IMG/VR virus record: IMGVR_UViG_3300029265_000554
Location: 1-21,536 of that record
DNA from: a virus
Strand: one strand, 5' to 3'
Length of the DNA: 21,536 nt
The position numbers were made by a program, and so were the translations under genes. Position 1 is the first letter of the stretch. Each line of letters starts with the position of its first letter. The notes beneath the pieces are model-generated. The model saw nothing but the letters and a program-made list of their open reading frames with translations, made no database searches and was not told the DNA's origin. Shown here one piece after another: positions 4,443 to 15,680 of the stretch.

Positions 4443-5606
4443 TTATCCTATATAAATTGCTCTTGGGACTTTATTTAATTCTTGCTCAACAAAATTACTT
4501 TCAGCGTTTCTTCGTTCCAATAATTTTTCTCTTGATGTTTCGCCTAAATAAGCTCTTAGCCTATCAATTAATCTTTCTTTTTCATTTGTAGCAGCTGTAA
4601 TTAAATCTCCTTGATTTAGAGAAACTGTATCTCCAGGAATTGGTACTGTTTGATATTTACCACGAACATAGCCTAACATTTCCTTACACAATGCTAATGC
4701 GTATTCAAATATCCAACTTCGACCTACTGAGTTTATTTTATTATAATTTGGATTTGAATATGGGACATCGTAGATGTTAGATATAGTACTACTACCTCCT
4801 ACTACAAATGAAGCGTCTGATCTCTCAGAATTTAAAATATATTCAAAGTATAGTTTATGTACTGAACCATCGGGTATTGGGAATATTCTTAAGTTATTGT
4901 TATGCATCTCAAATGAAAAGTTAGATCTTCTAATCGTATCATTAAGTTCAATCTGTTGGATTACTTGTAGATCATAATTTAAAGGCATTAGTACAAAATT
5001 GACTCCAGGTGAATACGCACCCCACCCAAAATTTTCCATCATACCTCCTTGATCCTGCATCCCAGCTCCGGCGTTAGGATCAAAAAATCTTGTAATTGCT
5101 GGTGGAGCTTCGTAAAACACTCTCATTATTTCAATATCGTGATTCTTATAATGTGGGATTGTTGATTTCGCCCAATCTTCTAAATTATAATCTTGAATAC
5201 TTGCTGTTAAATTAACAGAACCCGTATGCCAATCTACATTACCACCTGTACCAGCTTCGACACCATATTGTTCAGACATTTTAATAATTCTCCCTAAAGA
5301 TGGAACTACAACTGTATTTTCAATATCCATGTTGGCAGCATCTGCACCCTCTAGAGTTAAATAGTTATCTCTTGTTTGATATGCATACAATTCATTTGCA
5401 TAAATAGTTACTGCTTCTTCTAAGGCAGCATAGAAATTTAAATTTTGCAATTCAACATCTACAATAGGATAACCTAATCTACGGGATGCAAACACTGCAA
5501 ATTTATCTGCGTCTACTTGAAATTCCAAATCATTATCATAAAACCCAAAAGGTGTATCACCTGGGGCGAATGAGCTAGATCCGGGCCATATTGCTATATT
5601 TGCCAT
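4443..5606 (-). CDS. gp13: Neck protein (gp13-like head completion/connector)
   Basis: This 387-residue protein is called mainly from its position directly before gp14-like and gp15-like genes and its neck-protein look. The N-terminal helical part has FASRRLGYPIVDVELQNLNFY, then AALEEAVTIYANELYAYQ (about residues 40-77), resembling connector/adaptor proteins that bind the portal. A central beta-rich part includes MPLNYDLQVIQQIELNDTIRRS and LRIFPIPDG. A C-terminal helical part has WIFEYALALCKEMLGYVRGKY and ERLIDRLRAYLGETSREKLLERR. In T4, gp13 and gp14 close the filled head and give the tail docking site. It is longer than T4 gp13. The start is ATG. The next gene starts 3 bp after its stop, implying translational coupling. 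Confidence 0.75.
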   Translation of the reverse strand: MANIAIWPGSSSFAPGDTPFGFYDNDLEFQVDADKFAVFASRRLGYPIVDVELQNLNFYAALEEAVTIYANELYAYQTRDNYLTLEGADAANMDIENTVVVPSLGRIIKMSEQYGVEAGTGGNVDWHTGSVNLTASIQDYNLEDWAKSTIPHYKNHDIEIMRVFYEAPPAITRFFDPNAGAGMQDQGGMMENFGWGAYSPGVNFVLMPLNYDLQVIQQIELNDTIRRSNFSFEMHNNNLRIFPIPDGSVHKLYFEYILNSERSDASFVVGGSSTISNIYDVPYSNPNYNKINSVGRSWIFEYALALCKEMLGYVRGKYQTVPIPGDTVSLNQGDLITAATNEKERLIDRLRAYLGETSREKLLERRNAESNFVEQELNKVPRAIYIG

Positions 5607-5617
5607 TATTTTATTTT

Positions 5618-6079
5618 TTATCCGTTAACTACTACATACTCTACGTCCATACTTTGACTTAAAGCATAAACTGATATGAATTCTATACTTTGACCAAAAG
5701 TTCCATCAAATGCACTTCCTGTTACGTTGGCACTTGAAAATACAAGTGAAGATGTTGGTGTACATTCCATACTCCAATAATTTCTCCCACTACCGGCATC
5801 AGATGAAGTAAAACTAACTGCCAGTGATGATGTATTTTCTAAATTAGTAATTCTAACATATTTCATACTACTTGATGGGAAAGTTCCAGGACCAGGATTA
5901 ACACCGTTTACATTGATTAAATCAATAGATGTAGAAGGTGGAACTGTTAAGATTCTTCTATCTACATTGGTGATGTTACCTATGGTAAAGAAGGTTTCAT
6001 TAAGAGTTTTAATCCCCTTAACTACGTGTTCCTCTTTTATCTTTACCTGGAATGAGGTAGGTTGTATTGTGGATGCCAT
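5618..6079 (-). CDS. Small beta-rich virion-like protein, unknown
   Basis: This 153-residue protein is Ser/Thr/Val/Asn-rich with few charges after residue 30 and alternating hydrophobic segments, suggesting a beta-sandwich (for example SMKYVRITNLENTSSLAVSF and IEFISVYALSQSMDVEYVVV). There is no signal peptide or membrane segment. It sits between phoH and the neck genes and shares the ATATTTATAAC leader element, so it may head the neck operon. A minor head, neck or decoration protein is plausible from composition and place. I do not recognise a family. The start is ATG (CAAAATGG) without a Shine-Dalgarno. The gap to the gp13-like gene is 11 bp. Confidence 0.7.
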   Translation of the reverse strand: MASTIQPTSFQVKIKEEHVVKGIKTLNETFFTIGNITNVDRRILTVPPSTSIDLINVNGVNPGPGTFPSSSMKYVRITNLENTSSLAVSFTSSDAGSGRNYWSMECTPTSSLVFSSANVTGSAFDGTFGQSIEFISVYALSQSMDVEYVVVNG

Positions 6080-6090
6080 TTTGTTTTTGG

Positions 6091-6100
6091 TTATAAATAT
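6091..6100 (-). promoter_or_regulatory. Recurrent ATATTTATAA motif upstream of the 153-aa gene
   Basis: The minus strand reads ATATTTATAACCAAAAACA, 11 bp before the ATG. It is preceded by a CCCCCC tract (6102-6107). The extended match to the copies before the portal and the 113-aa gene supports a shared signal at the head of the neck-gene cluster. Confidence 0.42.
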
Positions 6101-6154
6101 TGGGGGGAATGTTTCAATTTAAAAAATATTAGAAGACCGCATAAATATATGAAA

Positions 6155-6892
6155 TTACTTCTTTTTCTTCTGACCTGAAGTTCCAGATAATCCTAAGTTT
6201 ACACCTCTTTCGAATGCTTCTTCATAAACTGAAATTAAATCATCCACAATTGGATCTCTATGGTTTTGCATTAAAGTAATAGCACACATTCTTTTAATCC
6301 TACGTGCGGCCGTATATAAAAACCTAAAACCTGAATCACGTTTTGACTTTAAATCAACTTGATAGTCATCACCACACACAACCATTTTGGATCTTAATCC
6401 AATTCGTGTAGCAATCATTTCCATTTGTTCGTGAGTTACATTTTGTGCCTCATCTACAATGATGCATGAATCTAAAAATGTTCTACCCCTCATAAACGCT
6501 AGAGGTACAATTTCTATTTTACCATCTTCAATAAGTTTTTCAATTTTTACTTTATCATATAATGCATACATATTTTGATAAATTGGTTGAATCCATGGAT
6601 CCATCTTTTCTCTTAAATCTCCGGGTAAAAATCCTATCTCTTCCTTAGATACAGTTGGTCTAGTGATTATTATTTTCTCATACTGTTTTCTAAATATGCC
6701 ATCTAATGCTATCTGACATGCTAGTAGTGTTTTACCAGAACCTGCCTTGCCTGCTAGTATTGTTAAAGTGTTATTTAAAATTTGCTCCTTGGCTAACTTC
6801 TGCTCGTCATTGAGTTGTAATTTAAATTTAATTGGATTCTTTATTATTTTCTTCTTTTTAAAAATTTCATCTTCGTGATGATTTGACGACAT
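6155..6892 (-). CDS. phoH: PhoH-like P-loop ATPase
   Basis: This protein of about 245 residues is a PhoH-family NTPase, common in marine phages; its role in infection is not settled, with RNA metabolism and stress response both proposed. It has Walker A GKAGSGKT (48-55), Walker B CIIVDEAQN (143-151, Asp147-Glu148), the family signature FMRGRTF (133-139) and IIITRPTVSKEEIGFLPGD (74-92). The N-terminus is Lys-rich. The C-terminal tail is odd: GLSGTSGQKKKK, where GLSGTSG equals a repeat unit of the collagen-like fibre of this phage. I chose the ATG at 6892; an in-frame TTG two codons upstream is possible. It follows the capsid terminator and a leader of about 240 bp, so it likely has its own promoter. 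Confidence 0.93.
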   Translation of the reverse strand: MSSNHHEDEIFKKKKIIKNPIKFKLQLNDEQKLAKEQILNNTLTILAGKAGSGKTLLACQIALDGIFRKQYEKIIITRPTVSKEEIGFLPGDLREKMDPWIQPIYQNMYALYDKVKIEKLIEDGKIEIVPLAFMRGRTFLDSCIIVDEAQNVTHEQMEMIATRIGLRSKMVVCGDDYQVDLKSKRDSGFRFLYTAARRIKRMCAITLMQNHRDPIVDDLISVYEEAFERGVNLGLSGTSGQKKKK

Positions 6893-7130
6893 ACTCAATT
6901 GTTTTTAGTTAATAAATTAATAAATAAATGTAGAATCTGCATTGTGGGTAGTTTAACATGGAGATATGTTAGATGTTGGTTCATATTGAGCATTAACGTT
7001 AAAATATGGCAATAATTCACTAACTACTAACAACAACACATTGTACCTACCCATAACATAGCTACACTAAATCATTTGATTATACATATTGGATTTTATC
7101 CTGTTTATGATGGTAAAAAATAGCGTATGT
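6893..7130 (-). promoter_or_regulatory. Gene-free leader between capsid terminator and phoH
   Basis: No open frame longer than about a dozen codons was found here. The region holds a TAACAT/ATGTTA hairpin (6954-6971, 6-nt loop), a perfect palindrome TTAACGTTAA (6993-7002) and a longer-range pair TGGGTAG (6945-6951) with CTACCCA (7047-7053) that would enclose both. On the minus strand the phoH-proximal part is AT-rich (TTTATTAACTAAAAACA), resembling the A-rich leaders of other genes here. The capsid terminator upstream implies a promoter in this segment, but no exact ATATTTATAA or TATAAATA box is present. It could be a structured leader or small RNA; I cannot show either. Confidence 0.45.
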
Positions 7131-7154
7131 AAAAAAGGGGCGCAAATGCGCCCC
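7131..7154 (-). terminator. Rho-independent terminator after major capsid gene
   Basis: On the minus strand GGGGCGC-ATTT-GCGCCCC forms a 7-bp all-G/C stem with a 4-nt loop (extendable by one or two A-T pairs), followed by TTTTTT. It is the most GC-rich element in the window and sits 33 bp after the capsid stop. Confidence 0.93.
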
Positions 7155-7187
7155 TCCTTATTATTTAACCTTTATGGTTAGTAAATA

Positions 7188-8831
7188 TTATAAAGTGTTT
7201 AATCCACTTACAATAATTTTACCATAAAATTCCGGTCTAACCACTTTCTTCGCGTAACGAGTCAATAGACCTTTACGTGGAGTAAATGTTTCTGGATCAT
7301 AAACTAATGGAGTCATGATTAATGGAATGTATGGAGCAAATACTGCACCTGCTTCCAAGAATTGACCACCTCTGAATCCCATTAAAATGGTATTCTCAGT
7401 CATGTAAGGATTTTTATAAACTGTATATCTACTGTTTATAGCACCTGCTTTTTGTACACCAAATGCATAAGAAGCTTTAGATACATCACCGTCTGAGTTA
7501 CTAGCGTATCCTGGAATTGATTCCAAAATCGTAGCTACTGTTGGAGAACATACTAAGAAATTAGCACCACCTCTAAGAGTTTTCTGATGAATGATATTAC
7601 TTAACTTTTGCATTTTAGTTCCTAACGTTTGGAACCATTGTCCTTGCGTGTTATAGAAACCAGCTGTGTTGTCAAATGCAGTTGCTGTAGCATTGATTTG
7701 ATTGTTATTAACAGCAGACCAGAACTCAGTTCCAGCAGCAGCAGAATCAATTAACATTTCAAGAATTTCTAAGTCGATTTCTAATGAAATATACTCACTC
7801 ATAATTGAAGTTAATTCAGCTTCAGCATCCAAAGAATGGTAAGCGTTTAAATCTTGAGCAAACTCAGGAGTCCAAACAGCTTTCAATTTACGTGTTTTAG
7901 CAACAATTGCTTCACTACGCATTTGAACGTTTACTTCAGGAATAGTTATTGATGGAGCGTTAGTTCCGTTTGGTAAAGGATTAGCGTCTTCGAAATCACC
8001 TCTATCATTATCTGTTGTTTGAAGAACGTAGTCCATAGTAATTGCTGCTGTTGCTGCATCAGCTGCAAGAACAGTTGGAGATAAAGATCCTGTAACAATA
8101 AATTCAAAACTTTCTCCTACTATCTTAGTAAATGCTGATAGTTGAACTCCAGCTTGTCCTGCTACTACAGAACCAGAATGTAATTGGAATGCTCTAACTG
8201 CTTCTTTATCTGCAAATGCAAATGAAGCTGTTGGAACCGATACTTTTCTAAATGTAGCAAAAGATGCTGAGTATGTAGAATCGAAATTCATATCCGCCCA
8301 TGTTACTGATGCAGTTGTTGAATTTATTAAAGATGAAGTATCAGCTATAGAATAACTAAATCTACCAGGACCATAAAGTCCACCTGTGTTTGTATTTCCG
8401 AATGGTGCAGCATTACCTGTATCTCCGTACATTGACTCACCTGTTTGAAATGGTGATTTTGCAGTTCCATATTGGAAATCCAAATAAAATACTAAACCAG
8501 AAGGTAAATTCATAGGTTGAACCGAAACGAATTCTTTCGCTGCGATTTGACCAAACACTTTTCTTACTAATGGTAAAGCTACTCCAGCCCATTGTGCACC
8601 AGTACCTGGTGTAAATGTTCCTGAACCTGCTCCGCCGCCTGTGTTTGATTCTTCCATAACTAATTGCTTAGCTTGGTTTTCAAGGATCATAGACATATTG
8701 TTTTTGTCAGTTTCGTTTCCGACACCTTCTAACAATCCTGTTCTATTCCACTTGTTGGCTAATCTAGCAGAATCACTTTGTAGTGATTTGTAAGGATTAG
8801 CACTTTCCAAAAGGGATTTTAATTGTGACAT
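7188..8831 (-). CDS. gp23: Major capsid protein (gp23-like)
   Basis: This 547-residue protein is the main shell subunit. It aligns by eye with T4 gp23. An N-terminal propeptide of about 60 residues ends QAKQLVMEESNTGGG, where processing after Glu60 or Glu61 is predicted. The next part matches the T4 pattern: GTGAQWAGVALPLVRKVF, then VSVQPMNLPSGLVFYLDFQYG. The body contains SEAIVAKTRKLKAVWTPEFAQDL and AYHSLDAEAELTSIMSEYISLEIDLEI, both typical of the family; the C-terminus has LTRYAKKVVRPEFYGKI. The start is ATG after an A-rich leader (ACAAAAAACAATG) with no Shine-Dalgarno. A strong terminator lies 33 bp after the stop, as expected for a highly expressed gene. No gp24-like vertex gene is visible. 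Confidence 0.96.
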   Translation of the reverse strand: MSQLKSLLESANPYKSLQSDSARLANKWNRTGLLEGVGNETDKNNMSMILENQAKQLVMEESNTGGGAGSGTFTPGTGAQWAGVALPLVRKVFGQIAAKEFVSVQPMNLPSGLVFYLDFQYGTAKSPFQTGESMYGDTGNAAPFGNTNTGGLYGPGRFSYSIADTSSLINSTTASVTWADMNFDSTYSASFATFRKVSVPTASFAFADKEAVRAFQLHSGSVVAGQAGVQLSAFTKIVGESFEFIVTGSLSPTVLAADAATAAITMDYVLQTTDNDRGDFEDANPLPNGTNAPSITIPEVNVQMRSEAIVAKTRKLKAVWTPEFAQDLNAYHSLDAEAELTSIMSEYISLEIDLEILEMLIDSAAAGTEFWSAVNNNQINATATAFDNTAGFYNTQGQWFQTLGTKMQKLSNIIHQKTLRGGANFLVCSPTVATILESIPGYASNSDGDVSKASYAFGVQKAGAINSRYTVYKNPYMTENTILMGFRGGQFLEAGAVFAPYIPLIMTPLVYDPETFTPRKGLLTRYAKKVVRPEFYGKIIVSGLNTL

Positions 8832-8863
8832 TGTTTTTTGTTTTTTTTTAGTTTTGTTTAAAA

Positions 8864-9976
8864 TTAAATTATTCCGGCTAATTTTTTAAATCTGTTAACC
8901 ATTTCATCTGACTCCATAATTGGTTTCTTCTTAGTTACTCTTGGAGCTGATATCGATTTTGAAGCTGATCCTAATTTGCTTTCGTTTACTTTTTTAATGT
9001 TTTTGAAAGTATAATTTTCACTAATAGTAGTATATACTATTTTTGCTTCTTTAACCGTTGTTGCCTTATCAAAAGCACCTAAAACTCTAGCCTTTTGAGA
9101 CTCGTTCATGTTGTTGGTTTTAAAGATTTTGTTTGCATAAAGAAGCTTAGCGTTAAGTAAATTAATTTCATTAAGTTCTGATTTTAAAGCTACAACAGTA
9201 TCCATTGCTTGTTTTAAATCTTCTCTTAAATCCTCATCTACTACTTCTTTATCCATTTGACTATCTCCGGCATATTTTCTTTTACCTTTAGCTTTTTCCA
9301 TGTTTTCAGAATCAGCTCTTCTTTGAGCCATATCTTGTTTCTTCTTACCATGTTTAGCGCCTTCAGCATCGTCTAATTTGTCGTTATAGCCTTGATCTTC
9401 ATCTATAGTTACTTCTAATTCATCTTCAGTTTCGATATCCATGTCATCTTCAACTTCGACTTCGTCTTCGTCTTCAACTTCCATTTCTTCTCCTGCTTCT
9501 AACTCACCGGCCTTAACCATATCTGCGATTACATCTTCAATAAAAGATTTTAGATCGTCTTCTGACATTTCTTCAAGATCGATTTCTTCATCGTCCTCAC
9601 TTTCAACATCTTTAGCCTCGTCTTCTTCACCATCTAAATAACCTTCTTCTTCAGATTCTTCATCAGAATCATCTTCTTTAAGTGATAATTTTGTAGTGTT
9701 AGACTTTTCTAAATCTTTTTCGAGTTCTGCTAAGATTTCATTTAAATCCATATCTTCCTCAGATGTGTCTTTTTCTTCCTTAACCTCTTCGTTTGCTTCT
9801 TTCATCTTGTTTTCTGCTTCTTCATCCATGTTATCCATTTCTTCGATTTTTGTAGCGAACATGGCTTGTAATTGAGGGGTGAAAGCTTCTTCAAGAGCGA
9901 CTTTAGCGTTTGCGATTGCTGATTCTTTCATTGTTTTAGCATCAGCGATTGCTTCTTTTAAAAATTCTCTGTTCAT
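8864..9976 (-). CDS. gp22: Prohead scaffold core protein (gp22-like)
   Basis: This 370-residue protein is extremely acidic: about residues 45-200 are dominated by Glu and Asp (for example EEVKEEKDTSEEDMDLNE). The N-terminus is an amphipathic helix (LKEAIADAKTMKESAIANAK, then VALEEAFTPQLQAMFATKIEE). The C-terminus is helical and ends MVNRFKKLAGII, a tail typical of T4-type and related scaffold proteins that contacts the capsid shell. The protein would fill the prohead interior and then be degraded by gp21; ALEE and similar L-x-E sites are present. The gene order protease-scaffold-capsid supports the call. It is longer than T4 gp22, mostly in the acidic region. It has an AAGGA ribosome-binding site. 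Confidence 0.9.
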   Translation of the reverse strand: MNREFLKEAIADAKTMKESAIANAKVALEEAFTPQLQAMFATKIEEMDNMDEEAENKMKEANEEVKEEKDTSEEDMDLNEILAELEKDLEKSNTTKLSLKEDDSDEESEEEGYLDGEEDEAKDVESEDDEEIDLEEMSEDDLKSFIEDVIADMVKAGELEAGEEMEVEDEDEVEVEDDMDIETEDELEVTIDEDQGYNDKLDDAEGAKHGKKKQDMAQRRADSENMEKAKGKRKYAGDSQMDKEVVDEDLREDLKQAMDTVVALKSELNEINLLNAKLLYANKIFKTNNMNESQKARVLGAFDKATTVKEAKIVYTTISENYTFKNIKKVNESKLGSASKSISAPRVTKKKPIMESDEMVNRFKKLAGII

Positions 9977-10108
9977 TTTCCTTAAATTTGTTTGTGGAAA
10001 TACGTTTATTAATAAAAACGTAATGGGGGGTTTATATATAAAAATATAAATGCCATATTGAAAATGGCATATTGACTGCTATACATATACGAAAATTATT
10101 GAGGATAC
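9977..10108 (-). promoter_or_regulatory. Scaffold-gene leader with two inverted repeats
   Basis: This gene-free leader follows the protease terminator and precedes the scaffold ATG. It holds two inverted repeats: ATGCCAT/ATGGCAT (10050-10070, 7-bp arms, 7-nt loop) and ACGTTT/AAACGT (10002-10021, 6-bp arms, 8-nt loop). It also has an AT-only run next to a CCCCCC tract (10025-10030). AAGGA lies 4 bp before the ATG and is one of the clearer ribosome-binding sites in the window. A promoter is expected here because a terminator lies upstream, but I cannot fix its -10 and -35 boxes. Confidence 0.5.
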
Positions 10109-10130
10109 AAAAAGCGCCCAAGAAGAGCGC
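10109..10130 (-). terminator. Terminator-like hairpin after the prohead protease gene
   Basis: On the minus strand GCGCTC and GGGCGC pair over 6 bp (one G-U) around a TTCTT loop, followed by TTTTTG. It sits 43 bp after the protease stop. The stem is short and the U-run has five bases, so it may be partial, letting some transcription through to the scaffold gene. Confidence 0.6.
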
Positions 10131-10172
10131 CTAATGTTTAAAGTCCGAAAGTAGTGTCCATTGGGAATAATA

Positions 10173-10778
10173 TTAAATTGGACATTGTCCTTTCGAGCAA
10201 AGTATTTCTGATATTATAGAATTAACTTTTAAATAATTGGATTGAGATTTAATTTCTAAACCTTCTTTTACCAAATGCATGAATGAATCGGGATTTGAGG
10301 GTGTTGAGACAAAATCCCAACATAATAATTCAAAGTCATCTTGTACTTCTAACATACCACCAGTTTCACGTAATGAACCCATCCCACGAGATGACACACC
10401 TACTGTAATGTTTGATTCAATTAATGCTTTAAGTATGTTTCCGTTAGGAGTAGGTAATATTTCTATTTTACCCATTACATTATCTCCATCCCACCACATT
10501 TTTGATATATTATGGGATACATTTTGTAAATTTATCACTGATGATTCAGGGTGGTCTAATTCACCCATTGCTCTATGTTCTTCAACTAGGACGCTATATT
10601 TGTCAATTTCTCGCTCCCATAAATCTCTAGAATAATAACGACCATTACCATTTTTAATTTCAGCTGTTGCTAAAATACCTTCTACAATAGGATTACCACG
10701 ATCAGAAAGTTTACCCTCTACAAGTGATATAGGGTTAGCTTTGAAAAGCTGTGTTTCAATAAGTAATTTAGTTTTCAT
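10173..10778 (-). CDS. gp21: Prohead core protease (gp21-like)
   Basis: This 201-residue serine protease is of the T4 gp21 type (MEROPS S80 clan). It cleaves scaffold and capsid proteins during prohead maturation. The catalytic His is in GELDHPES (His76) and the Ser in TVGVSSRGMGS (Ser129/130). A conserved acidic residue follows in LLCWDFVSTPSNP (Asp155). NGRYYSRDLWEREI (46-59) is also typical of the family. The length matches T4 gp21 closely. The start is ATG within an AT-rich leader. It directly precedes the scaffold and capsid genes, as in T4, but a terminator-like hairpin lies between it and the scaffold gene, which would allow lower protease than scaffold/capsid expression. Confidence 0.94.
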   Translation of the reverse strand: MKTKLLIETQLFKANPISLVEGKLSDRGNPIVEGILATAEIKNGNGRYYSRDLWEREIDKYSVLVEEHRAMGELDHPESSVINLQNVSHNISKMWWDGDNVMGKIEILPTPNGNILKALIESNITVGVSSRGMGSLRETGGMLEVQDDFELLCWDFVSTPSNPDSFMHLVKEGLEIKSQSNYLKVNSIISEILCSKGQCPI

Positions 10779-10787
10779 ATTTTTATA

Positions 10788-11996
10788 TTAAAATAATGGA
10801 TCTGCTAATAGAGATAATACTACTTCGTATTTTTTATCTTCGGGGTAAATTTCTAAATACATTTCTACTGCTTCAGTTGCATTACCCACTTGATCAACAT
10901 ACGATTCTAATTCGTCCTTCATTGCTGATAAAATATCTTCACTAGGAGTGACAGGACTATTATTTTCTTCATCAATTTGAGTTTCGCCTACTATTTCTTT
11001 ATTAGTATAAGACTTACCACACATTTTTTCATACAACTTTTCCATCTTAGCTTTTCGCTTTTCTAAAAACTTGATTTCTTTCTTAATTTCCATCAATTTT
11101 CTCGTATCTACTAACTCAGATAAACTATCATCTTCAGATACTAGAGAAATTCTTTCATTTTTACTTGAAATTATTCCTTCTAATGCTTCTATTTGCATTT
11201 CTAAAGTAGCAATTTTACCATCAGTTTCAATCTTAGCCAATTTAGAATCTGTTGTTTCTTTTTTAACTTTTTTAGTTTTTGTCTTCTTAGGTGATTTTTC
11301 ACCTAATGGGAGACCTTCCACCAAATTTACTAATGATATCATTTTGTTTTCTTTTACTTCAATATAACCGGTTCCTATATTTCCCTCTGGAAATTCTTTC
11401 TTAGTAGCTTCACCATAACCACCACCTATACCGGGGTTTTTAACTTGTGTTGGTTTTAATCCTGGTTGGTTTTTGCTGTATCCTATTCCCTTAATACCAA
11501 ATTGAGCTTCTTCAACATAGTATTGTGGATTTTTATCAATATTTTTAATTACTAAATTAATTAATTCTTGTTTTGTTTTATCAGCGTTTGCTTCATCTGT
11601 AAGTTCGGTGTAGTAACCTTGACGGAATTGCTCACCAGCTACATTATTAAGTAATTCATCATTTTTATAATCATACCCTCTACCAGGTGCTTGTAAATCT
11701 GTTACCTGTTTTGATGTTTTTTTCTCGGCAGCCTTAGCTTCTTCTTCTGAAATAAGGTTCATATTTTCATCAAACACTTTAAACCAATCTGGTTGTGTTG
11801 ATTTTTGTGTTGCTATACCCCAAAGATTTTCGGATATAATATGACCATGTTTTAAACTGGCGATTGTTTCTGTTAAGGTTGCGGCGTTACGAACCATGTT
11901 TGGAAATTGTCTTTTAGCGGATTTCATAAATATTTCGCTGTTACCCTTTCCTTTGCTAACTAGGTTGTATTGTTCTTGTAGTGTTTTTTGTTTCAT
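10788..11996 (-). CDS. Unrecognised coiled-coil protein upstream of prohead protease
   Basis: This 402-residue protein is charged, with no membrane segment. N-terminal residues 1-60 include MKSAKRQFPNMVRN, found in an amphipathic helix. The region of about 80-210 is Gly/Asn/Lys-rich and low in hydrophobics. A Lys-rich patch (KSPKKTKTKKVKKE, about 234-247) precedes a long coiled coil (about 250-330: LEMQIEALEGIISSKNERI, then KKEIKFLEKRKAKMEKLYEK). The C-terminal domain ends VEMYLEIYPEDKKYEVVLSL. It lies between portal and protease, so a scaffold or prohead-core role is plausible by position. The Lys-rich patch could contact DNA or the acidic scaffold. I do not recognise a family. The gap to the protease gene is only 9 bp. 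Confidence 0.72.
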   Translation of the reverse strand: MKQKTLQEQYNLVSKGKGNSEIFMKSAKRQFPNMVRNAATLTETIASLKHGHIISENLWGIATQKSTQPDWFKVFDENMNLISEEEAKAAEKKTSKQVTDLQAPGRGYDYKNDELLNNVAGEQFRQGYYTELTDEANADKTKQELINLVIKNIDKNPQYYVEEAQFGIKGIGYSKNQPGLKPTQVKNPGIGGGYGEATKKEFPEGNIGTGYIEVKENKMISLVNLVEGLPLGEKSPKKTKTKKVKKETTDSKLAKIETDGKIATLEMQIEALEGIISSKNERISLVSEDDSLSELVDTRKLMEIKKEIKFLEKRKAKMEKLYEKMCGKSYTNKEIVGETQIDEENNSPVTPSEDILSAMKDELESYVDQVGNATEAVEMYLEIYPEDKKYEVVLSLLADPLF

Positions 11997-12003
11997 GTTA
12001 TTT

Positions 12004-12924
12004 TCATGTTAATAGGTTTTTTATATCTTTAATATAATCTAGAATTAAATCAGTTGGTTTAAGAACATTATATGAACTTGAATTATCTGTATAATATTGA
12101 ACTGTTTCGTTTTTAGCATTACTTAACATCTTATAAATATTATTCATCTCTTGTTCAATTACATCAAATGAAGCAATTCTTTCTTTTTGGAATGTATCAG
12201 GTGTTTTTGATTCGTTGAATAATTGGTTTACTTCTAAACCAGATCCTTTTTGTACATAATTACCTTTTTTGTTTTTAGGTACAAGTTTGTATTTATATTG
12301 GTTAATGTAAGCATTATCTTTAACCCCATCTCCAGTTGCTACTGGTCCTGGCCCTAAATCTTCACCTGGGTGTTGATTATCTTCTTTTACGGGTTTATAC
12401 CCTATTTCTTTATAAGCTTTATCGTTTGCCTTTTTACCTTTTAACCTAAAAGCATAAGGGGTTGCATATTGCATCCCTGTACCACCAGTAAATGAAGCTG
12501 ATCCTGCTCCCCCACCAGTTGTTGATATTTCTTCTAAATCCTCGTTTACCTTCTTGGATTTATTATATTGTTCAGGATAAAACTTTCTCAAGTGAGTTCT
12601 GTATCCATTAAATACGTCTTTTAAATCTCGTTGGATTTTTCTAATTTCAACATCGTTTCGAGCTTCGTCCTTACCCAATAATCTCTTTAATGATATAACA
12701 GCATCTGACATCTTTTTCAGGGCATCACTAAAACTTGCTAATTCAATTAATTTATGATCAATGCCCCCAGTTGATGGGTCAACAGAAACGGTTTTATAAT
12801 ATCTTGTTAAATCATCAGTCCAAAAATCATTCACAGCATCAATTGGGCCGTGAGTATCCTCCATTCGTTTTATGAATTCAGGGTTAAGATCTTTAACTTT
12901 AATATTTTCGTTCAATTTACCCAT
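12004..12924 (-). CDS. Unrecognised head-region protein with GGGAG peptide
   Basis: This 306-residue protein has a helical, charged N-terminal part (1-130). A Gly-rich stretch follows: STTGGGAGSASFTGGTG (134-150), then MQYATPYAFRLKG. This stretch closely matches SNTGGGAGSGTFTPGTG in the major capsid protein of this phage. It is preceded by NEDLEEI, where Leu130-x-Glu132 fits the (L/I)xE cleavage rule of T4-type prohead proteases. The middle is Lys/Gly/Asn-rich and probably disordered, and the C-terminus is helical. Position and the possible processing site suggest an internal head or scaffold-associated protein cut during maturation; this is inference. Its ATG overlaps the upstream stop by 8 bp, and the next gene starts 7 bp downstream. 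Confidence 0.75.
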   Translation of the reverse strand: MGKLNENIKVKDLNPEFIKRMEDTHGPIDAVNDFWTDDLTRYYKTVSVDPSTGGIDHKLIELASFSDALKKMSDAVISLKRLLGKDEARNDVEIRKIQRDLKDVFNGYRTHLRKFYPEQYNKSKKVNEDLEEISTTGGGAGSASFTGGTGMQYATPYAFRLKGKKANDKAYKEIGYKPVKEDNQHPGEDLGPGPVATGDGVKDNAYINQYKYKLVPKNKKGNYVQKGSGLEVNQLFNESKTPDTFQKERIASFDVIEQEMNNIYKMLSNAKNETVQYYTDNSSSYNVLKPTDLILDYIKDIKNLLT

Positions 12925-13774
12925 TTGATGTAGTAAGTTCTTCTAGAAGACTATGATATTGGAGGAGATCTACCAGATGATGATTTTTAATTCCTTGCCT
13001 TTTGTCTAATTCTTGAATATGTTTAGAAACTTCTTGCAATTTAATTTTAATTGTTTTTGAAGGTGTTTTCTTAATCTCAAGTATTAGTTTTTCTTGGATA
13101 TATTGTATTTCAGAATTATAGAATTCTTTTAATTGGGTTGTTGAATCTACGGATTCAATAAATTCTTTAAGGATTTGTTTTTGTTTTGGATTTAAATCTG
13201 TGTACTTATCGTTAAATTTCTCTAACATAATTTTATAAGTTAATGTACGGAGATCTTTATCATAAGATTTAAATTCTTCAATTACGTCATCCTTAACTTC
13301 TCCTCTCCCAACTTGTGATTGGGTTAAGTGTTCTAATAAAGTAATCTTATTATCTATAATTTGGTTGGGGGATGTTGGTTTATTAGTAGAATAAACTTCA
13401 AATAGAGTATAAAGTGAAGCCTGCGCTTTGTAGTCGTAAAGTTTAGTTTTAAATAAATCTTCAACGTTATAATGCTTTTTAAGTTCCTTAATAAGATTAT
13501 ACTTTTCTCTCCTCAAATGTGTTTTGTTAAGTTTTTTTGAGGCTTCAACTACTGTAGATATTACAATATTGGCTTTATTTTCACTAATATTTTTAGTCTT
13601 AAATACCGTTTCGTATAATTTGTATTCTTTACCTAATTCAGTATTAACAAAATATTCTTTTAATATCGTGATAGCTGGAGAGTTCCTACCTGATAAGGTA
13701 TCTGAGGTAATCTTCTTTACTAATACCTCAAATAAGATACCAGTATTTTTAAATTTTGAATGTTTTATATACAT
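12917..13774 (-). CDS. Unrecognised helical protein between portal and protease
   Basis: This protein of about 285 residues is strongly basic and acidic with long predicted helices and no membrane segment or signal. The N-terminus MYIKHSKFKNTGILFEVLVKKIT has a mixed alpha/beta look. The rest (about residues 80-285) is Lys/Glu/Leu-rich and could form coiled coils (for example KQKQILKEFIESVDS and EVSKHIQELDKRQG). It occupies the place where T4 has the small prohead-core genes 67 and 68, so a head-assembly role is a positional inference, but it is much larger than those. The ATG at 13774 is preferred; an in-frame TTG lies one codon upstream. It overlaps the next gene by 8 bp. Confidence 0.7.
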   Translation of the reverse strand: MYIKHSKFKNTGILFEVLVKKITSDTLSGRNSPAITILKEYFVNTELGKEYKLYETVFKTKNISENKANIVISTVVEASKKLNKTHLRREKYNLIKELKKHYNVEDLFKTKLYDYKAQASLYTLFEVYSTNKPTSPNQIIDNKITLLEHLTQSQVGRGEVKDDVIEEFKSYDKDLRTLTYKIMLEKFNDKYTDLNPKQKQILKEFIESVDSTTQLKEFYNSEIQYIQEKLILEIKKTPSKTIKIKLQEVSKHIQELDKRQGIKNHHLVDLLQYHSLLEELTTSNG

Positions 13775-13788
13775 CAATGTTTATTTAT

Positions 13789-13811: not shown

Positions 13812-15680
13812 TTATTTAATGTTAGATTCGTTAAGAAGTGGACTTTCGATTTTATCTTCCTCAAATACCAATTGTTTTTTACCATATGGAATTTTCTTTA
13901 ACATGTCTTTATGTTTAAGAGCTGTTAAATTTTCTAAAGCTAAAGATGATTTACCTTTTTGATTGTAATCTTTTTTCATACCATCGGCTCCTAATCTGTC
14001 CTTACCAAAGTTACTATCCTGTGTATTTCTATTTGATATTTTTTCTTGTGGACGACCTAAATCGGCATCATCATACCCCTTTGGAACATTGTTTGGATCT
14101 GAATCTAATCTACCTTTACCATATAGTGAAGCTAAATCATGAGGTGTACCATAAGATTTACCTGTATCCACAGGATCATTACCTTCGGCTTCAATTTGGC
14201 CTAAACGGAATTTACGTTTAGCATCTTCTCTAATTAAATCCCTAAATTCATCATATTGATCTTCACTTAAGTGGAAAATATTATCATAAATCCAATCTGT
14301 TGGAAATAGGTTAGTATCAGTCATTGCTGTAGCTAAATCCATTTTTTCTTTCATCAGTGCAACTCTTTCCTGATCATAAATGATTGAAGGATTAGTTAAT
14401 GATAGTGTGAAATTAGCTAATTGTTCATCTCTATAACCTTGAGTGTATAAGTGTACTAATGCTATTTTAGTTAACTCAGATACCATGATTCTTTGAATAC
14501 GCTCTATGGTACGAGCAAATCTAATATCTTGGGCTGCTAGTGTTGCTTTACCATCTGTATCTTCATCATAACCCATAAATGCTTTAGGCACTTTGAGAGC
14601 AGCAAATAGTTTATCTCTTAAATATTCAACATCGGCAATACCATCCCACTGCATACCATTAGCAGTATCAATTTTTGTTGATTGATCATTTCCACGGACT
14701 GGTATATAATAATCTTCAAGTAAATTTTGCATGTTGTACTTTAAATTATATTCACCTGTATTTTGATCAATATAAGGAGTACGTTTAAGTTTACTTAATG
14801 TTTTTTCCATAAACGCATCTACTTCATTTGGAGGTATTGAACCTACATTCATGTAAAATATACGTTTTTCAGGCGCACGAACAATTCTATGGATTAACAT
14901 TGCGTCTTCCATTAGTGTATACTGTTTAAACAGCTTACGTGCGGGTTCAATGTAGCTTCTACCATAAGGTAAGAAATTCATATCAGATATTAGTCGGAAA
15001 TGAGCCATTTCATAATTGTCAAAGATTATACTTCTACCATCATGTTCTTGGTTTGGGACACTGGAAAAACCATAAGAAGAGGCATCAACTCCATCTGGTT
15101 GGAATCTATATTTTACTTCTGTTGCTCCATCTTCTCCCCCACCTTCTAATCTTTCAATGTGAAATGCCGTATAAGGAATAACATTATAAACACCAAATTT
15201 CTCAGCAATTTCTAACTTTAAGAAAAAATCACCATATTTACACATATTACGAATCCAAGGCCAAAGGTTGAATTCAATATTTAGTACATCATAAAATAGA
15301 TTGTATAATATTTTTTGAATATCTTCATCTGATGAACGAATGGCTAATACTTCGCCCATATCGTTTTTAAGTGTAGATTCATCAGCTACAATGTCAAGGG
15401 CAGATGCTATAATTGCATCTGTATCCATCGCATCATAATCAGAGTAAAGTTGAGGTCTTAAATATTGGTAGTTAAAATTAACTTGCTGACCATATAGTGA
15501 AGTTGAAGAATTAGTGTAGATTTTATTGAATCTATCTACTAAAGCGTTAGTTTCAAACTCACCAGTTTGCTGTATTGAATTAACATCAAATACTTTAAGT
15601 TGGTTACCACCTACGTTGCGTATAACCACATCAGTGGAAAATATTCTTTGTAATCTTGAAAATAAACCTTTGTCCGCCAT
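13812..15680 (-). CDS. gp20: Portal vertex protein (gp20-like)
   Basis: This 622-residue protein would form the dodecameric portal through which DNA enters and to which the neck attaches. It resembles T4 gp20: an N-terminal helix (LFSRLQRIF), YSDYDAMDTDAIIASALDIVADES (about residues 79-102), an acidic wing, a central segment with RIVRAPEKRIFYMNVGSIP and a stem/crown region with PKAFMGYDEDTDGKATLAAQD. The C-terminal 100 residues are polar and probably disordered (SYGTPHDLASLYGKGRLDSD). It is somewhat longer than T4 gp20. The start is ATG with an A-rich leader (ACAAAACAAAAATGG) and no Shine-Dalgarno. It lies directly after terminase, with no tail sheath or tube genes between as there are in T4. 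Confidence 0.93.
   Translation of the reverse strand: MADKGLFSRLQRIFSTDVVIRNVGGNQLKVFDVNSIQQTGEFETNALVDRFNKIYTNSSTSLYGQQVNFNYQYLRPQLYSDYDAMDTDAIIASALDIVADESTLKNDMGEVLAIRSSDEDIQKILYNLFYDVLNIEFNLWPWIRNMCKYGDFFLKLEIAEKFGVYNVIPYTAFHIERLEGGGEDGATEVKYRFQPDGVDASSYGFSSVPNQEHDGRSIIFDNYEMAHFRLISDMNFLPYGRSYIEPARKLFKQYTLMEDAMLIHRIVRAPEKRIFYMNVGSIPPNEVDAFMEKTLSKLKRTPYIDQNTGEYNLKYNMQNLLEDYYIPVRGNDQSTKIDTANGMQWDGIADVEYLRDKLFAALKVPKAFMGYDEDTDGKATLAAQDIRFARTIERIQRIMVSELTKIALVHLYTQGYRDEQLANFTLSLTNPSIIYDQERVALMKEKMDLATAMTDTNLFPTDWIYDNIFHLSEDQYDEFRDLIREDAKRKFRLGQIEAEGNDPVDTGKSYGTPHDLASLYGKGRLDSDPNNVPKGYDDADLGRPQEKISNRNTQDSNFGKDRLGADGMKKDYNQKGKSSLALENLTALKHKDMLKKIPYGKKQLVFEEDKIESPLLNESNIK

Follow-up and report, generated by a model that had tools for sequence, protein, structure and literature searches.

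Why should two different proteins of one phage head operon carry almost the same glycine-rich peptide, each time directly behind a possible protease site? The question is raised by a 21.5-kb IMG/VR virus record (21,536 nucleotides, hereafter the window). Its minus strand carries a head operon of the T4 type, in the order terminase, gp20 portal, 286-aa protein, 306-aa protein, 402-aa protein, gp21 protease, gp22-like scaffold and gp23 (Table 1). Window proteins match the Pfam families Gp23, Portal_T4 and Terminase_6N, while the gp22-like scaffold has no Pfam or PHROG match. As the nearest named records are Flavobacterium phage immuto (58%), Microcystis phage Mel-JY01 (50%) and Rhodothermus RM378 (38%), the window phage is probably one of the Far-T4 phages, judging by these and the Pfam matches. 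The minus strand also encodes, at 194-2932, a tail-fibre-like 912-aa protein made up mostly of GTSG/SGSSG repeats.

Table 1. Head genes of the window and subdivision of the two proteins with the shared peptide (the 306-aa protein is termed the partner).
Feature	Position	Strand	Evidence or remark
gp20 portal protein	13812..15680	-	Pfam PF07230, E=2.2e-67
286-aa conserved protein, portal/partner gap	12917..13777	-	present in 74/76 genomes
Partner, N-terminal folded domain, residues 1-132, ending L-E-E132 (predicted cut)	12529..12924	-	pLDDT 90-96, residues 11-120
Partner tag, residues 133-154, ISTTGGGAGSASFTGGTGMQYA	12463..12528	-	disordered in model, pLDDT about 40
Partner, TPYAF motif (155-159) and Lys-rich, largely disordered stretch to ~236	12217..12462	-	pLDDT about 46-54
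Partner, C-terminal helical module, residues 237-306	12007..12216	-	pLDDT 90-97 from residue 241
402-aa protein, partner/gp21 gap	10788..11996	-	present in 43/76 genomes
gp21 prohead protease	10173..10778	-	Pfam PF03420, E=1.7e-28; PHROG head maturation protease
gp22-like acidic scaffold	8864..9976	-	position and composition
gp23 propeptide, residues 1-60, ending V-M-E60 (predicted cut)	8652..8831	-	Pfam PF07068 match starts at residue 79
gp23 tag, residues 61-82, ESNTGGGAGSGTFTPGTGAQWA, predicted mature N-terminus	8586..8651	-	position of T4 N-fist
gp23 body, N-arm helix onwards	7188..8585	-	Pfam Gp23, E=1e-74

A peptide common to gp23 and its partner

Both peptides were confirmed where the preliminary description had placed them, at residues 58-78 of gp23 (VMEESNTGGGAGSGTFTPGTG) and 130-150 of the partner (LEEISTTGGGAGSASFTGGTG). 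Each is preceded by a Glu site close to the T4 gp21 rule [LI]xE, namely V58-M-E60 and L130-E-E132. Counted from P1', directly behind VME60 and LEE132, 15 of 22 residues are identical, and the likeness continues four residues past the end noted earlier, to GAQWA in gp23 and GMQYA in the partner. A tblastn search of the window with the 47-aa partner tag segment hit two places only, the gp23 match having E = 7e-6. This likeness is far above chance, as revealed by more than 120 Far-T4 loci and by permutation tests (see below).

Alignment to T4 gp23 places the predicted cut site of the window gp23 at the T4 cut after E65; 65 N-terminal residues are removed from the T4 protein (PMC9958956). The gp23 tag is the segment from the cut to the N-arm, as is the T4 N-fist (phmmer against gp23* in the PDB; T4 sequence). 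In an AF2 model of gp23 alone, which is of low confidence (pLDDT 58.9), the tag is not predicted to be ordered in the monomer.

Architecture of the partner and conservation of the predicted cut sites

The partner has no match in the Pfam or PHROG libraries, and comparison with the PDB by sequence gave chance matches only. A fold search related its N-terminal domain (residues 36-133) to ribosomal protein S15 with Z 8-9 over 65-77 residues; for a helical hairpin, this likeness may just reflect a common helical arrangement. The best BFVD match of the partner model is an uncharacterised viral protein. The AlphaFold model of the partner places a folded domain ahead of the predicted cut, leaves the tag and the Lys-rich middle disordered and ends in a helical C-terminal module. 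Residues 133-236 have a net charge of +6. Among 34 aligned relatives, only E132, T155, A158 and F159 are invariant, which include the predicted P1 residue and part of the TPYAF motif. The C-terminal helical module is fused in some relatives and missing in many, the protein then ending ...LF in the alignment. Where the module is joined, LFE is common at the junction and could be an extra gp21 site (LFNE in the window). The order of tag module and helical domain is swapped between three partners (L061, L073, L077) on one side and L056 and the window on the other.

In gp23, E60 is invariant in 38 relatives. P3 of the partner site is L, I, V or M in 98 of 121 tagged partners (strictly L or I in 73), that is, in 81% of the tag sites versus 33% of other Glu residues of the same proteins; P1 = Glu is circular in this survey since the sites were located by their Glu. 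The predicted cut lies 9-25 residues from the first Met in roughly half of the genomes; in most others, the distance is 67-366 residues. In 42 of 53 partners with a long N-terminal part, [LIVM]xE occurs within the first 22 residues, compared with 17.7 expected. The window protein itself has a possible additional cut site, LNE6, in its N-terminal domain. Many partners (for example L021 and L016) begin with M(A/G)YKYK(L/V/I)(K/S)E, which probably serves in targeting and would be cut separately, at residue 9.

Distribution among related phages

The preliminary description had suggested looking for the tag behind a Glu site in related phages, and counterparts were found in more than 120 distinct Far-T4 loci. 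Both genes are present in 129 distinct loci; Glu site and tag were recognised in 122 (74 long and 48 short tags), the remaining seven lying outside the search pattern. The first loci were scanned with a profile of 27 partner tags. In 56 of them it detected one non-gp23 protein per genome, upstream of gp21, together with the gp23 N-terminus; it found nothing beyond these two in the first loci, where other Gly/Ser-rich ORFs stayed below score. Occurrence in many non-head proteins, which had been named as an observation that would speak against a common role in the head, was not seen: no third tagged protein was present in twelve larger records, of which four measured 160-190 kb. A tblastn search of phage records with the tag gave a single match (L090), which we judged to be due to chance.

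The partner is short in the cultured Flavobacterium phage immuto (gp072, 73 aa, EEMSTTGAVGGYLTKNAF; predicted cut ...LEE|MSTTG) and in Mel-JY01 (178 aa, NEENVTGNVDGYETPYAF). Short tags such as STSGGAGAYxTPYAF, found in 48 of the 122 loci, imitate gp23 little, indicating that full mimicry is dispensable. When gp23 type is compared with tag length, there are 26 T/long, 17 Q/short, 11 T/short and 0 Q/long cases; a gp23 of the FxSQT type, which is mainly one clade, is thus never paired with a full-length partner tag. The 160-190 kb genomes behind L065, L068, L085, L086, L195, L257 and L235 each have a single gp23-type gene (PF07068) and thus no recognisable gp24 vertex paralogue.

The two tags co-vary within genomes

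Tag pairs from the same genome resembled each other more than swapped pairs in permutations that preserve composition (n=26, z=7.1). The effect persisted after thinning at 80% gp23 identity to a single genome per group (n=17, z=6.1) and for the part from P7' to the end alone (z=6.3 and 5.4 before and after thinning), and with 76 genomes z was 13.8. Phylogenetically independent contrasts were formed from about 22 genome pairs whose connecting paths in the gp23-body tree do not overlap. For the 76-genome set, they were positive in 14.5 and negative in 3.8 cases (median Wilcoxon p=0.0026; distal tag part, p 0.0041); an earlier, underpowered contrast test on 26 genomes had not reached significance (median sign p 0.14). 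As examples, L235 has TGGGVSNGATFTPGTGEQ in both proteins, and the pairs are TNTIATNSSFTSGTEGENWA with INSISSNSSFNSGTEGENYA in L139, ANTSNVGGASFSAGQGEQWA with ANVTNVGGATFTPGQGAQYA in L275 and ANVNTSGGAGFSAGAGETWA with ANVTQVGGSGFTAGAGETYA in L287.

Per-position matching is raised at P1'-P9', as it is at the majority of variable positions as far as the third one counted from the aromatic-Ala end. Upstream of the tags there is little likeness except for the P1 Glu, and downstream of the aromatic-Ala end almost none. The coupling spans P1' to about P22', its edges being partly a matter of power as gp23 is nearly invariant on both sides of its tag. Protease subsites alone are too short to explain a coupling of this length.

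Recent copying of DNA between the two genes is unlikely, as codon identity is close to that expected from codon usage. At 928 shared residues, 463 codons are identical versus 422 expected from per-locus usage (z 2.76); the first set gave 166 versus 152. Even the 18-residue identity of L235 has only 9 of 19 codons in common (7.5 expected), so that about half differ. Gene conversion was thus rejected as the cause of the likeness. The slight excess would allow for some DNA exchange in the past, and selection on the peptide would be the simpler cause.

The partner tag follows the gp23 body

To which protein the partner tag is tied was analysed by distance correlations. A partial r of 0.28 (p 0.0007) linked partner tag distance to the gp23 body with portal, 286-aa protein, gp21 and gp22 removed; this lead over gp21 could be inflated, as the slowly evolving body may be the best proxy for phylogeny. 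Once the gp23 body was removed, the partner tag followed none of the other four proteins, and gp21 was tracked by neither tag (partial r about -0.13 to -0.18). On the DNA, gp21 is nearer than gp23 to the partner gene, yet it is the gp23 body that the partner tag tracks. The correlation of tag with tag remained significant after removal of all five (0.21, p 0.0013).

Proposed function and alternative explanations

In T4, the N-fist, which locks neighbouring capsomers, comprises residues 66-91 of gp23* and is disordered where it faces the portal rather than a capsomer (PMC7136217); at the portal vertex, this concerns five subunits. The N-terminal regions of gp23 are disordered inside the prohead; when the head expands, they pass to its outer surface and form the N-fist, and this region then touches four subunits and helps to build the Soc site (PMC9958956). 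Since the gp23 tag is the N-fist segment, we propose that the partner is a gp21-processed protein of the prohead core whose new N-terminus would mimic the N-fist and dock on the shell. We give this reading about even odds (probability near 0.5). With its gene in the gp67/gp68 position, the partner would be a core protein and, as the conserved sites suggest, would be cut by gp21 after E132 in the same wave as gp23 after E60. Both mature proteins would then expose a nearly identical, flexible Gly-rich N-terminal peptide. By homology and the T4 literature, that of gp23 should pass to the outside on expansion and clamp neighbouring capsomers. That of the partner may dock into a like site on the gp23 shell, anchoring the Lys-rich tail to the head. 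If the docking site drifts, both peptides would have to follow, giving the matching within genomes. The absence of long tags alongside FxSQT-type gp23 fits a docking site that may no longer accept the mimic. Co-maturation and a common binding partner, as put forward in the preliminary description, thus gain from the conserved [LIVM]xE sites, the prohead-core gene position and the co-evolution of the tags; we infer cleavage of the partner, its docking and its location in the virion. That the mimic fills N-fist sites which gp23 cannot, for example at the portal vertex, acting as a capsid plug in lock-step evolution with gp23, is a doubtful extension.

The other idea of the preliminary description, a tag recognised by gp21, found no support: coupling reaches about P22', and it is the gp23 body, not gp21, that is tracked. 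Both tags do begin at P1' of a gp21-type site and P1'-P6' also co-varies, but an extended recognition element, with the primed side read far past the cut and substrates following gp21, is unlikely given that P7' to the end co-varies independently. Further, T4 gp21 is described as cleaving after a short motif, L/I-X-E (PMC9026906), neither tag tracks gp21 beyond the gp23 body (partial r -0.18 and -0.15), and the profile found no third tagged protein in the loci. An explanation by the protease alone was rejected, in view of the co-variation of the distal part and the lack of tracking of gp21. Binding of both peptides to a third head factor instead of the shell (gp22, another core protein or a decoration protein) would fit the same co-variation data, and the T4 N-fist does contribute to the Soc site (PMC9958956); we consider it somewhat unlikely, since the weak correlation of gp22 distance with the partner tag (simple r 0.18) adds nothing beyond the gp23 body (partial r -0.00).

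It is quite improbable that the two proteins have no functional link and that the partner segment duplicates the 5' region of gp23, the likeness arising by recombination or composition. The small excess of identical codons and the low-complexity Gly/Ser/Thr character of the tags would agree with this, but the divergence at synonymous sites is close to that predicted from codon usage, even within the 18 identical residues of L235, permutations preserving composition still reach z 13.8, and other Gly/Ser-rich ORFs in the loci fail to score. Finally, the partner could be an internal protein of the T4 type, from which an N-terminal targeting peptide is removed, the rest being packaged and injected and the tag being a mere spacer. 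The cut at 9-25 residues in about half of the genomes, similar to T4 capsid targeting, the frequent early [LIVM]xE (42 of 53) and the Lys-rich disordered product are in line with this; a mere spacer, however, would not co-vary with gp23 residue by residue, which makes this reading very improbable. Packaging as such is compatible with an N-fist mimic and may be true as well.

Comparison with known systems

Proteins of the core that are cut by gp21 are already known. Like T4 gp67/gp68, the partner gene lies in the gap between portal and protease (T4 order 20-67-68-21-22-23), but three genes instead of two fill this gap in the window. T4 gp67/gp68 are cut by gp21, and gp68 has a basic tail, a further likeness to the partner; unlike the partner, they carry no gp23-like tag, and reading the T4 sequences revealed no evident sequence likeness. 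The T4 capsid-targeting sequence of IPI-III and Alt is an N-terminal peptide of about 10 residues removed by gp21, and the short predicted propeptide of many partners ends in [LIVM]xE. In contrast to IPI-III and Alt, the partner is encoded in the head operon, its product would begin with a capsid-like peptide, and in many cases a folded domain precedes the predicted cut. The difference from the T4 N-fist is that the Far-T4 sequence is another one and that a second, unrelated protein has a copy of it. In the open-licence literature, we found no report of a core protein that copies and co-evolves with the mature capsid N-terminus.

In a 484-kb uncultured phage (L103, LR756508.1), the portal ORF (19-2472, 817 aa) and the gp21 ORF (9029-10753, 574 aa) have, by eye, long intein-like insertions with possible homing-endonuclease parts. 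Between them, at 4953-8932, is a run of small ORFs, several of which share an N-terminus of the type KLR.II(R/K).E(I/L)K that looks like a common capsid-targeting propeptide.

The localisation of core proteins in the T4 prohead has been called still mysterious (PMC9958956). The co-evolving peptide common to the partner and gp23 would identify a point at which a core protein directly contacts the shell, in a large and abundant group of aquatic, T4-related phages that is almost uncultured. Matching of short disordered peptides within genomes can hint at shared binding sites without structures.
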